This document shows, one piece after another, positions 2,952 to 10,916 of a stretch of 64,000 bases of DNA (the first letter of the stretch is position 1; each line of letters opens with the position of its first letter). The notes beneath the pieces are model-generated. The model saw only the letters and a program-made list of their open reading frames with translations. It was not told the DNA's origin and searched no databases. Source of the DNA: Saccharothrix obliqua (GTDB lineage Bacteria > Actinomycetota > Actinomycetes > Mycobacteriales > Pseudonocardiaceae); assembly GCF_019375475.1 (NCBI RefSeq), contig NZ_JAHXGQ010000005.1, positions 372,001-436,000 on the forward strand, in the 5' to 3' direction. Both the position numbers and the translations under genes were made by a program.

Positions 2952-3260
2952 TCAGCCTCCGACGTTGTTGTCGTGACCATCGGAGATGCCGCCCGCGGCG
3001 CAGTTGCCCGTGGTCTCGGGCGACGCGATCGGCACGATGAGGCCGATGATCGGGATGTCGTTGTTGCAGAGGCCGACGACGGCGTTCACGTTGTTGCCGT
3101 TCAACAACGAGACGATGTGGCCCTGGTTGAAGTGGTGGTTGCCGTGGTGCCCGTCGTGGTGCCCGTGCCAGTCGTGCTCGGGCTCACCGGCGAACGCCGG
3201 GGAGCCGACCATCATCACGCCTGCCGCGAGAGCGGCGACCGCGCCAGCCTTCTTCAGCAC
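2952..3260 (-). CDS. Small secreted His-rich protein, chaplin/rodlin-like
   Basis: A 102-residue protein from GTG 3260, preceded by GGAGG about 8 bases upstream. Residues 1-25 are a clear Sec signal peptide (Lys-Lys, Ala/Val core, cleavage near PAFAG). A His-rich patch follows (DWHGHHDGHHGNHH), which could bind metal. The second half is hydrophobic, with a LLNGNNVNAV block and two Cys about 21 residues apart (GLCNNDIP and GNCAAGG). This resembles the hydrophobic domain of chaplins and related actinomycete surface proteins, which assemble on aerial structures. The exact family is uncertain. A degenerate copy lies immediately upstream (3397-3638). The ATG nearer the ribosome site is out of frame and stops after three codons. 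Confidence 0.6.
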   Translation of the reverse strand: MLKKAGAVAALAAGVMMVGSPAFAGEPEHDWHGHHDGHHGNHHFNQGHIVSLLNGNNVNAVVGLCNNDIPIIGLIVPIASPETTGNCAAGGISDGHDNNVGG

Positions 3261-6883: not shown

Positions 6884-6896
6884 CGCGGGTGTGACG

Positions 6897-6931
6897 AAAT
6901 GGAGGCTTTCCCGGCTGGAAAGCCTCCATTT
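6897..6931 (+). terminator. Terminator after phoH2
   Basis: A perfect 15-bp inverted repeat, AAATGGAGGCTTTCC (6897-6911) and GGAAAGCCTCCATTT (6917-6931) with loop CGGCT, starts 14 bases after the stop codon. It ends in ATTT, giving a rare U-containing tail in this GC-rich sequence. Confidence 0.85.
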
Positions 6932-7005
6932 CCCCGTTGTTCACCGGATTCCATTAATGACGAATATGGCGGACCGGGCACGCCGACCCCGGTACTGTGA
7001 CGACC

Positions 7006-7659
7006 ATGCCGGTCGCGATGGACACCGCGCAGTACCTGGGTTACAGCGTGCTGGCCGTCGGCATGATCGCCGCGGTCGCCGCCGCCGTGCTGGCCGTCCG
7101 GTCGCAGGTCACCGGCTCCAAGGACCGCCAGCAGCTCGTGGCCGAGGACGTGCAGGCGACCAAGGAGCTGCTCGCCGCGCCGCAGGGCGCCACCGCGCCG
7201 CCGCAGGTCGCCAAGTGGGAGCAGCACGCGACGGAGACCGCACGCACTCAGCTCGACCTGTACCTGCGCAACTCCGAGGCCGCGCTGCGGCAGAGCGCCA
7301 CCAGCTTCCGCGTCGGCATGACCGCCGCGGCCGTCGGGTTCCTGGTGGTCATCGGCTCCGTGGTGTGGCTGCTCGCGGTGGACCGGGACGTCGCCCTGGC
7401 GGGCGTGATCAGCGGCGTCGTCTGCGAAATGATGGCCGCCCTGTTCTTCGTCGAGACCAAGGCCACGCGCGCACGCACGTCCGCCATGCTCGACCGCGCC
7501 CAGTCCGAGGCCGACCGCGTCGTGCGGGCACGTGCCGCGCTCGCCGTGGCGGCCGACATCACCGACACCACCACCCGCGAGGCGTTCCTCGCGGACATCG
7601 GGCGCTGGCTGCTCGGCGGTGAGCCGGTCGGCGAACCCACCACAACGGAGGCGCAGTGA
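7006..7659 (+). CDS. Membrane protein with a TRADD-N-associated-type two-helix membrane domain
   Basis: A 217-residue protein. The start ATG 7006 lies 7 bases after a -10 hexamer TACTGT (6993-6998), consistent with leaderless expression; GTG 6997 is an alternative. Helix 1 spans about residues 10-30. A basic/Gln-rich cytosolic linker follows, then TARTQLDLYLRNSEAALRQS leading straight into two helices (about 100-122 and 128-147), with the sequence FFVETKATRARTSAMLDR after the second. That pattern (amphipathic lead-in, two helices, then a Lys/Arg helix) matches my recollection of the TRADD-N-associated two-transmembrane domain reported in prokaryotic immunity/apoptosis-like systems. No TRADD-N or death-like domain is seen in this chain. 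It overlaps the next gene by 4 bases (GTGA), so the two are co-translated. Confidence 0.6.
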   Translation: MPVAMDTAQYLGYSVLAVGMIAAVAAAVLAVRSQVTGSKDRQQLVAEDVQATKELLAAPQGATAPPQVAKWEQHATETARTQLDLYLRNSEAALRQSATSFRVGMTAAAVGFLVVIGSVVWLLAVDRDVALAGVISGVVCEMMAALFFVETKATRARTSAMLDRAQSEADRVVRARAALAVAADITDTTTREAFLADIGRWLLGGEPVGEPTTTEAQ

Positions 7660-9425
7660 ACGCAGCCGCAGTGCAGCGACGCCGACGACTGCCGATCGTG
7701 CTCGGCGCGCTCGCCGTCGTGTTCATCCTGGTGGGCGGGATCCTCGCGCTGAGCGGTCCGGGCGACGCGCCCGCCGACGACGACTGCCTGCCGCTGAGCA
7801 TGTGGTCGTCGGACGAGAAGACGCCGCTGTTAATCGAGATCGCCAAGCGCTACAAGGAATCCGACCACCGGGTCGACGGGCGGTGCGTCGACGTCGAGGT
7901 GACGGCCCGCTCGTCGCAGGAAACGGTGGTCGCGTTGACCGCCGACCCGGACGCGCGGCCCGAGCTGTGGAGCCCGTCGTCCCGGTACTGGGTGGACAGC
8001 CTGCGCTCGGCCATCGCCACCCGGCCCGGCCGGGTGCGGTCCGTGCCGGACAACCCGGTGTCGCTGGCCTCGTCGCCGATCGTGATCGCCATGCCCGAGC
8101 CGATGGCCCGCGAACTCGGCTGGCCCGAGGGCGCGATCGGCTGGCGGGACATGATCGCGCTGGCGCGGCAGCCGGACGGCTGGGGCTCGCGCGGCAAGCC
8201 GTGGGGCGCGTTCAAGATCGGCAAGACGAACCCCGTGCACTCCACCGCCGGCCTGCTCGCCACCATCGCCACCGCCGGCGCCCTGTCCGGCACCAGCGAC
8301 GCGCTCACCCTGCCCGCGTTGGAGGACCCGGCCGTCGCGGCCGGCCTGCGTGCGCTGGAGAACACCGCCGTGCACTACGGCAAGCGCTCGTCGGTGTTCG
8401 TGCACAACCTGTACGCGGCGGACCAGGAGGGGCGGGCGCTGGACTACGTCAGCGCCGTGCCGCTGGAGGAGAAGGTCGTCCTGGACTACAACCGGGGCGT
8501 CCTGGTCGGCGACTCGCGGGCGCGGACCCCGCCGCAGGTGAAGTTGGCCGCGGTGTTCCCGACCGACGGCACCGCCGTGTCCGACAACCCGGCGATCGTG
8601 GTCGACGGCGAGTGGGTGACGGACGAGGAGAAGCGTGCCGCCGAGGGCTTCCTGGCCTACGCGCAGGAGCAGAAGGAGATGTTCGCCGAGGACGGTTTCC
8701 GGGACGGCGAGGGCAAGCCCGGCGAGCGGCACGTCGAGGCCAACGGCACGATCGCGAACCCCGCGTTCCGACTGGTGCGCACGCCCGCGTTGGAGGTGTC
8801 CGACGGGGTGCGGGAGCTGTGGCAGCGCAACCGGCGGCGGGCCAACGTGCTGCTGCTGGTGGACGTGTCGAAGTCGATGGAGAAGCTGGTCGACCCGGTC
8901 GCGCGGACCAGGCTGGACCTGGCCAGGGACGCCGCGCGCCTGGTGCCGGAGCAGCTCACCGAGGACGACACGCTGGCGTTGTGGGAGTTCAGCAGCCCCT
9001 TGGGCACCGATGCCCGGCCGTGGCGGGAACGGGTCGGGGCCGGGGCGGTGGGCGTGGTGCGGGACGCGTTCGGCCGCGCCGTGGACGGCCTCCAGCCGAC
9101 CGGGGCGACCGAGCTGTACGAGTCGACGCGGGCCGCCGTGGACGACGTGCGCGGCCGCTTCGACGCGAGCCGGATCAACGCCGTGGTGGTGCTCTCCGAC
9201 GGTCGCAACGAGCCTCCCCGGCCCGACGGGCTGACCGGCCTGGAGAACGCGTTGCGCGCCGCCGACAAGGACCGCGTGGTGCGGGTGTTCTCCATCGCGT
9301 ACGGCGACGAAGCCGACCGCCGCGCCCTGGAAGCGATCTCCACGGCCGCGCGGGGCGGTTTCTACGACTCCACCGACGCCGCGCGCATCGAGTCGGTCAT
9401 GGCCGACGTGCTGTCGAACTTCTGA
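7656..9425 (+). CDS. Membrane-anchored substrate-binding plus VWA domain protein
   Basis: A 589-residue protein beginning at GTG 7656, overlapping the upstream stop. An uncleaved N-terminal helix (about residues 8-30) anchors an extracytoplasmic chain. Residues about 45-380 look like a type II periplasmic binding fold of the bacterial extracellular solute-binding (SBP_bac_11-like) group, ending in a GEWVTDEEKRAAEGFLAYA segment. Residues about 395-589 are a von Willebrand A domain with an intact MIDAS: DVSKS at about 402-406, the Thr-type loop PTGATEL and the acidic loop VLSDGRNE. VWA domains of this type bind ligand through a divalent metal. No transporter genes are adjacent, so sensing or complex assembly is more likely than uptake. 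The only partner is the TRADD-N-associated-type membrane protein. Confidence 0.78.
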   Translation: MNAAAVQRRRRLPIVLGALAVVFILVGGILALSGPGDAPADDDCLPLSMWSSDEKTPLLIEIAKRYKESDHRVDGRCVDVEVTARSSQETVVALTADPDARPELWSPSSRYWVDSLRSAIATRPGRVRSVPDNPVSLASSPIVIAMPEPMARELGWPEGAIGWRDMIALARQPDGWGSRGKPWGAFKIGKTNPVHSTAGLLATIATAGALSGTSDALTLPALEDPAVAAGLRALENTAVHYGKRSSVFVHNLYAADQEGRALDYVSAVPLEEKVVLDYNRGVLVGDSRARTPPQVKLAAVFPTDGTAVSDNPAIVVDGEWVTDEEKRAAEGFLAYAQEQKEMFAEDGFRDGEGKPGERHVEANGTIANPAFRLVRTPALEVSDGVRELWQRNRRRANVLLLVDVSKSMEKLVDPVARTRLDLARDAARLVPEQLTEDDTLALWEFSSPLGTDARPWRERVGAGAVGVVRDAFGRAVDGLQPTGATELYESTRAAVDDVRGRFDASRINAVVVLSDGRNEPPRPDGLTGLENALRAADKDRVVRVFSIAYGDEADRRALEAISTAARGGFYDSTDAARIESVMADVLSNF

Positions 9426-9426
9426 C

Positions 9427-9455
9427 CCGGGGGGAGCGCGGGCCGCTCCCCCCGG
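9427..9455. terminator. Bidirectional terminator between convergent genes
   Basis: Arms CCGGGGGGAGCG (9427-9438) and CGCTCCCCCCGG (9444-9455) are perfect 12-mers with a 5-base loop, directly after the VWA gene stop and 10 bases before the guaB1 stop. Confidence 0.8.
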
Positions 9456-9464
9456 CCAGTGCGG

Positions 9465-10916
<1,452 letters not shown>

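Follow-up and report, generated by a model that had tools for sequence, protein, structure and literature searches.

What do two overlapping genes, set between phoH2 and an IMP-dehydrogenase gene in the soil actinobacterium Saccharothrix obliqua, do together? They lie on contig NZ_JAHXGQ010000005.1 (assembly GCF_019375475.1), in the stretch of 64,000 nucleotides from position 372,001 to 436,000 that is called the window here and supplies all coordinates below. The first, gene 1, encodes a three-helix membrane protein, and the second, gene 2, a membrane-anchored protein that joins a solute-binding protein domain to a von Willebrand factor A domain (SBP-VWA). We found that the two-gene unit is real; comparison between genomes supports it well as a genetic unit, while the support for a sensing mechanism is moderate. 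With somewhat better than even confidence, we regard the pair as a two-protein transmembrane sensing unit, the likeliest purpose of which is envelope surveillance. The two genes and their parts are:

7006..7659, plus strand: gene 1, three-helix membrane protein of 217 amino acids, ATG start, TGA stop at 7657-7659
7042..7098, plus strand: helix 1 of gene 1 (residues 13-31), located by hydropathy
7282..7476, plus strand: CyanoTRADDas_TM domain of gene 1 (residues 93-157), with helices 2 and 3 near residues 107 and 131
7656..9425, plus strand: gene 2, membrane-anchored SBP-VWA protein of 589 amino acids, GTG start at 7656-7658
7695..7751, plus strand: N-terminal membrane anchor of gene 2 (residues 14-32), RRRR preceding the helix
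7800..8702, plus strand: SBP_bac_11 domain of gene 2 (residues 49-349), 51.4 bits against a cut-off of 25
8844..9398, plus strand: VWA domain of gene 2 (residues 397-581), 29.9 bits against a cut-off of 23.8

Of the 25 genomes of the genus compared (a sample that includes Saccharothrix deserti, genome G154, of which locus L015 is a stretch), four carry gene 1 by profile and sequence comparison, and the very same four have a close copy of gene 2, at least 77% identical. SBP-VWA matches with E ≤ 1e-20 occur in all 25 genomes and, apart from the close copies, do not exceed 37% identity. The phoH2 gene is likewise present in all 25, and the pair stands directly behind it in every carrier; among the 21 non-carriers, 15 have the convergent guaB-type gene at most 1.5 kb behind phoH2 with no pair between, and the other six have neither the pair nor guaB within that distance. 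The carriers are dispersed over a phoH2 tree, where the label changes four times and supported branches force at least two of these changes; at least two gain or loss events must therefore have occurred, and the two genes always agree. This is a DNA tree of a single gene, in which recombination is possible, and it retains L148 (misframed at a contig end, with 12 stops in translation) and four rows with one stop each.

The same picture was obtained outside the genus. In a family sample of 346 genomes, 26 matched the gene 1 profile: the four carriers, five genomes of a second genus and 17 others, two of which, G168 and G170, belong to the window's own genus and hold a distant relative. In all five genomes sampled from the second genus gene 1 lies directly before an SBP-VWA gene, at a site other than that behind phoH2; there, gene 1 is 40-43% identical to the window copy over 115-134 residues and gene 2 39-41% identical over 562-612 aligned positions. 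No SBP-VWA gene was found near 16 of the other gene 1 relatives in stretches of 8-14 kb, a survey that leaves aside the 17th and weakest match (G532, E 8e-4), and at the phylum level gene 1 matches were seen in 8 of 396 genomes, one being the window's own, with no SBP-VWA gene within flanks of at most 1.5 kb on each side of the other seven. In a gene 1 tree of 27 rows, built without the unpaired G069 protein, a single branch with a Shimodaira-Hasegawa-like approximate likelihood ratio (SH-aLRT) support of 96 splits nine paired proteins from 18 unpaired ones. All nine loci of the paired group, from two genera and different sites, have gene 1 and gene 2 adjacent. Neighbouring genes were called with a crude longest-open-reading-frame picker, so that gaps are approximate and some genes were missed; gene 1 of L194 and L195 was overlooked in this way and recovered by later comparison. 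One unpaired gene-1-type protein (L140:7175-7828) lies beside terminase-like genes, named by eye, perhaps in a prophage.

Seen from gene 2, the association is much looser. In an order sample of 150 genomes, gene 2 was matched (E ≤ 1e-10) in 81 and gene 1 in three; SBP-VWA proteins are thus widespread, gene 1 accompanies them rarely, and the pairing holds from the side of gene 1 only. The expectation that relatives would conserve the pair was thus borne out in two genera and failed for most SBP-VWA genes, which occur without gene 1. These counts would fit two functionally unrelated genes that share a promoter, an explanation that we consider very improbable in view of the adjacency at nine of nine loci in two genera and at different sites.

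The layout of the locus agrees with a closed unit. The stop of gene 1 and the start of gene 2 share the four bases GTGA (7656-7659), as the initial annotation, made from the sequence of the window, had stated. It had further proposed a shared leaderless-type promoter and terminators on both sides, for which the relevant features are:

6896..6932, plus strand: hairpin between phoH2 and gene 1, 16-bp stem, -28.1 kcal/mol, z -5.1, no T run
6993..6998, plus strand: TACTGT, a -10-like box exactly 7 nt 5' of the gene 1 ATG, putative leaderless-type promoter
9427..9455, unstranded: hairpin between gene 2 and the convergent IMP-dehydrogenase gene, 12-bp stem
9465..10904, minus strand: IMP-dehydrogenase (guaB-type) gene, PF00478 at 332 bits, convergent with the pair

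Leaderless actinobacterial promoters resemble a TANNNT box 7 nt before the start codon. This spacing is kept in all four pair-carrying genomes of the genus, where the start codon itself varies, and it precedes only 2 of 1995 ATG or GTG triplets on the plus strand of the window. The box and its spacing are confirmed, and their role as a promoter is putative. The downstream hairpin reaches -30.1 kcal/mol on the plus strand (z -2.9, with 3 of 200 shuffles equally good) and -34.5 kcal/mol on the minus strand (z -4.2). Both hairpins are strong; because no T run follows either in the sequence, we call them terminators by inference only, the upstream one probably of phoH2 and the downstream one probably bidirectional. 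The upstream neighbour carries the PhoH and PIN domains of phoH2 in Pfam searches. No ABC permease or ATPase gene lies beside gene 2, which together with gene 1 is flanked by phoH2 and the IMP-dehydrogenase gene, the genes farther off having been read by eye. Elsewhere in the window (2952-3260, minus strand) a small histidine-rich protein without a Pfam hit is encoded, probably secreted as judged from a signal peptide seen by eye; similar-looking genes occur in L113 and L115.

Which of the two proteins faces outwards? Of all the roles considered here, that of gene 2 as the outside receptor is the best supported. Its single helix (hydropathy peak at residue 14) follows the sequence RRRR, and the rest of the protein is therefore placed outside. 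The SBP and VWA domains both score above their cut-offs, and the full metal-ion-dependent adhesion site (MIDAS) initially described is present as D403, S405, S407, T485 and D515, residues assigned by the standard motif. Among 30 homologues D403, S405 and S407 are invariant, and T485 and D515 are at least 90% conserved. The protein has only two cysteines, C44 and C77, of which the latter is invariant and the former at least 90% conserved in the same 30 rows.

The hydropathy of gene 1 peaks at residues 13, 107 and 131, in agreement with the proposed plan of one helix, a linker and a two-helix domain. The first nine residues lack K and R, the linker carries eight K/R and eight D/E, and the part after helix 3 nine K/R and ten D/E; these charges weakly suggest that the N-terminus is outside and the linker and the C-terminus inside. 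By a simple counting method applied to the window genes and three pair-carrying congeners, the ratio of nonsynonymous to synonymous substitution rates (dN/dS) of residues 76-195 is about 0.09, 0.08 and 0.17, and that of the first 75 residues about 0.53-0.56. Purifying selection acts on the membrane core of gene 1. The initial assignment of this core to the two-helix type associated with TRADD-N was upheld by a profile search: gene 1 scores 34.7 bits against PF20712 (CyanoTRADDas_TM), above the Pfam cut-off of 24.3, and all 13 rows of its alignment (A3) match the family at E ≤ 0.01. DUF7139 scores 28.6 bits, just below its cut-off of 30.

Does this kinship make the pair a defence or programmed-death unit, in which gene 2 senses a phage or a competitor at the surface and gene 1 perforates the membrane? 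The family is named for its association with TRADD-N, the presence of the pair is patchy (4 of 25 genus genomes), the WD40 and KAP NTPase partners of related loci resemble parts of conflict systems, and SLATT proteins are described as pore-forming effectors in the available part of PMC7159879. Gene 1, however, reaches only 11.8 bits with the NCBIfam model SLATT_1, far below the cut-off of 41, and the PADLOC defence library gave no match for gene 2 and for gene 1 a single one, DruK, at E 0.002 and 15.5 bits, for which no cut-off is supplied. Pfam found no TRADD-N domain in gene 1, gene 2 or phoH2, the three proteins of the genome searched for it, and no nuclease or TIR domain in the same three, the other neighbours having been judged by eye only; the pair itself lies between phoH2 and an IMP-dehydrogenase gene. 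Because TRADD-N is missing from these three proteins, the name PF20712 carries no function for gene 1. The link to immunity or apoptosis drawn at the outset is without direct support, and we hold the defence explanation to be unlikely.

The surroundings of gene 2 relatives were surveyed twice. The first survey comprised 72 loci (L015 and L114 being one genome), of which a pattern scan with gene 2 supplied 52 and the order and genus samples 20; gene 2 was located in 70 of them. A member of a PspM-like cluster was found at most four genes away in 41 loci, directly behind and on the same strand in 36; 20 loci had a PspA gene nearby, 16 an AAA+ gene and 13 a second SBP-like protein, and in nine a WD40-KAP gene lay directly before the SBP-VWA gene. 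The second survey covered 43 loci, namely 42 of the 46 best-scoring order matches (at least 225.7 bits) and G168; it leaves out the window itself, G082, G013, G035 and all weaker matches, and it has 17 loci in common with the first. Here a PspM-like gene follows the SBP-VWA gene in 22 loci, at a gap of 0-70 nt or with an overlap except in L127 (1216 nt). A WD40-KAP NTPase gene precedes it in six, five of which have a gene for a two-transmembrane-helix (2-TM) protein of the 171-aa type behind, and a Ser/Thr kinase is fused to it in four and encoded directly upstream in two. Pfam confirmed the kinase, KAP, WD40 and Hsp70 domains on L131, L130, L132, L129 and L016 and the AAA+ domain on L052, and gave no hit for the SBP-like protein of L025; the Hsp70 neighbour was seen at one locus only. 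In L018, L019, L023 and L052, genes for an AAA+ protein, an SBP-like membrane protein, SBP-VWA, a PspM-like protein and PspA stand in one row. The L052 record is titled as a metagenome-assembled genome (MAG) of Bifidobacterium breve, while its SBP-VWA protein groups tightly with that of the Acidimicrobiia MAG L018, and the contig may be misbinned.

The fusions fix the polarity of the system. In L131, L235, L239 and L240 the kinase is fused in frame to SBP-VWA, and in L131 a membrane helix and a long repeat linker of the GPPISGPP type lie between them; an arrangement of kinase, helix and SBP-VWA places the output inside and the sensor outside. The suggestion of an outside sensor with an inside partner, made from the window alone, gained support from these fusions and from the varied partners of related loci. 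They also bear on a structural or assembly role, in which gene 2 would be a metal-dependent envelope scaffold or chaperone put in place by gene 1, with no signal crossing the membrane; SBP and VWA proteins linked to TelA may have such a function. VWA domains often serve as metal-dependent binders, and the profile of gene 2 matches the VWA domain of the calcium-channel alpha-2/delta protein with E about 2e-8. The same genome, moreover, holds a further SBP-VWA unit, an operon on contig C8 (L136:3491-7927). It links an SBP-like gene (named by eye), TelA (227.5 bits), an SBP_bac_11/VWA protein that weakly matches a lipoprotein signal, and a 2-TM protein of 191 aa, the first and the last without a Pfam hit. 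Since a scaffold would leave the kinase fusions and the neighbouring intracellular enzymes unexplained, we consider this role quite unlikely.

A tree of gene 2 proteins indicates how the partners may have changed. Of 75 rows built, 72 were kept; L079 (probably a wrong-strand translation) and L057 and L128 (long or of odd composition) were dropped, whereas L015, L113, L114 and L115, from the same genomes as L073-L075, and the partial L054, L058, L062, L063 and L064 had been kept out beforehand. The nine gene 2 rows paired with gene 1 sit in a group of 21 rows (support 96/97), which also takes in the Hsp70 row, all nine WD40-KAP rows, and L130 and L132 with their upstream kinase genes; 38 PspM rows and, on a long branch, the kinase fusion L131 fall outside. 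The four rows of the window's genus join the Hsp70-linked Phytohabitans row (100/99). A single clade of the nine paired rows was rejected (p-AU 0.001, approximately unbiased test run after the tree had been viewed). As these gene 2 proteins do not form one clade while their gene 1 partners form one group, exchange of partners within the 21-row group is the simplest account. With related SBP-VWA genes standing beside PspM-like proteins, kinases or ATPases instead, the pair looks like one version of a sensor with an exchangeable output part.

The rejected clade is the first of several points that weigh against the pair as an envelope-sensing unit. Over its whole length gene 2 is less constrained than phoH2 (dN/dS about 0.41-0.47 versus 0.10-0.18 with the three congeners). 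Nine of the 43 loci of the second survey have no recognised partner (in one of them, L241, another 2-TM gene stands right behind SBP-VWA), and the window's own genome has a solitary VWA paralogue (L135, in which Pfam does not recognise the SBP part), so such proteins can stand alone. The position of the partner varies, gene 1, kinase and KAP genes standing before SBP-VWA and PspM-like genes behind it; gene 1 thus lies upstream, unlike the commonest partner. That partner is itself only loosely PspM: of the 22 PspM-like proteins, at E ≤ 0.001, ten match the NCBIfam PspM model and four the Pfam model Rv2743c, and the best of them, L117, exceeds the Pfam cut-off (41.8 bits versus 27.7) and stays below that of NCBIfam (54 versus 80). 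In a profile comparison, the 41-row PspM-like set matched the genome's own PspM with a probability of 14.5%, and PspA is encoded within the stretch in only four of the 22 loci. Finally, gene 1 has no detectable homology to the other partners, and its assignment to the same role therefore follows from position alone: profile comparison showed no kinship with PspM (hhalign probability 0.8% with the 41-row set and 0.2% with the genome's own PspM) or with the 171-aa and 191-aa 2-TM partners (about 1% or less).

How far, then, does the connection to Psp reach? It is real in some loci, namely L117, L118, L120, L121 and the loci of the first survey with PspA, and a distant resemblance in the rest. 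As no other partner turned up as often as PspM-like proteins, envelope surveillance is judged the likeliest purpose, a weak step, and our confidence in an envelope-sensing unit is reduced because fewer than half of these proteins match curated PspM models and PspA is rarely near. At the window locus there is no pspA or pspM; the genome has a single PF04012 match, which lies on contig C47, and the window is on C44. A helix-turn-helix gene (clgR-like, by eye), pspA and pspM stand together at that other locus, with no SBP-VWA gene in 14 kb, and the pair is therefore not a displaced Psp locus.

With these reservations, an envelope-sensing pair might work as follows. The SBP domain of gene 2 would read a small ligand or a component of the cell envelope outside the membrane, and the MIDAS of its VWA domain, with a bound metal, would hold a partner, probably gene 1 or an envelope protein. 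By its position, gene 1 is probably the part addressed by the receptor: it stands where related SBP-VWA proteins have a Ser/Thr kinase, a WD40-KAP NTPase or a PspM-like protein. Across the membrane, the signal would reach the linker of gene 1 in the cytoplasm and its C-terminal helices, which might then change assembly, recruit other proteins, or act on or disturb the membrane.

An SBP-VWA family encoded beside PspM-like proteins in many lineages and fused to kinases elsewhere is a direct candidate for the outside sensor of actinobacterial Psp-type responses. The pair in the window is the simplest form of such a system, with two genes that are retained or absent jointly, and it supplies a concrete partner for the TRADD-N-associated membrane domain. 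A bolder proposal, possible but doubtful, is that SBP-VWA proteins form an as yet unnamed family of envelope receptors in actinobacteria, the outputs of which can be exchanged. Through a PspM-like protein, their most frequent partner, they would act as outside sensors that feed Psp-type membrane protection, and one clade would have swapped this output for kinases, WD40-KAP proteins, an Hsp70-like protein or, in the window, an apoptosis-type membrane module that made the stress sensor a membrane-acting switch.

Among known systems, the calcium-channel alpha-2/delta protein carries a VWA domain outside the membrane and modulates a partner within it; the resemblance to gene 2 is limited to the VWA domain, which makes it an analogy and not a case of whole-protein kinship. 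The actinobacterial Psp system (ClgR-PspA-PspM) is similar in that many gene 2 relatives lie directly before PspM-like 2-TM genes, in a few cases followed by pspA; it differs in that neither pspA nor pspM is found at the window locus and no homology between gene 1 and PspM is detectable. In its available portion, PMC11237479 calls PspM restricted to mycobacteria and corynebacteria, contains neither vWA nor von Willebrand, and mentions solute-binding proteins in connection with other operons; PMC9239133 contains no vWA, solute-binding or PspM, and no solute-binding occurs in the accessible part of PMC7159879. Among the matches listed in the open-licence literature, none describes the SBP-VWA family. 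The CyanoTRADDas_TM proteins (PF20712) share with gene 1 a domain above the cut-off, but neither protein of the pair has TRADD-N, and the outward SBP-VWA partner seen here goes without mention in the portion of PMC8195603 available to us. The ternary conflict systems of MoxR and vWA, as far as the accessible text of PMC7159879 and PMC8195603 goes, also have a vWA protein in an actinobacterium; there it works with a MoxR AAA+ ATPase, whereas the VWA domain of gene 2 is predicted to lie outside the membrane, and its neighbours, phoH2, gene 1 and the IMP-dehydrogenase gene, include no recognisable MoxR gene (the wider window being read by eye). In the mycobacterial GlnH-GlnX-PknG system, described in the available part of PMC6069109, a membrane protein is proposed to relay the signal of a solute-binding protein on the outside to a kinase. 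Its sensor is a lipoprotein and its output a kinase, whereas the window pair has a VWA domain in gene 2 and no kinase. Of the chains of this kind that have been worked out, it comes closest to the pair, though solely in function.

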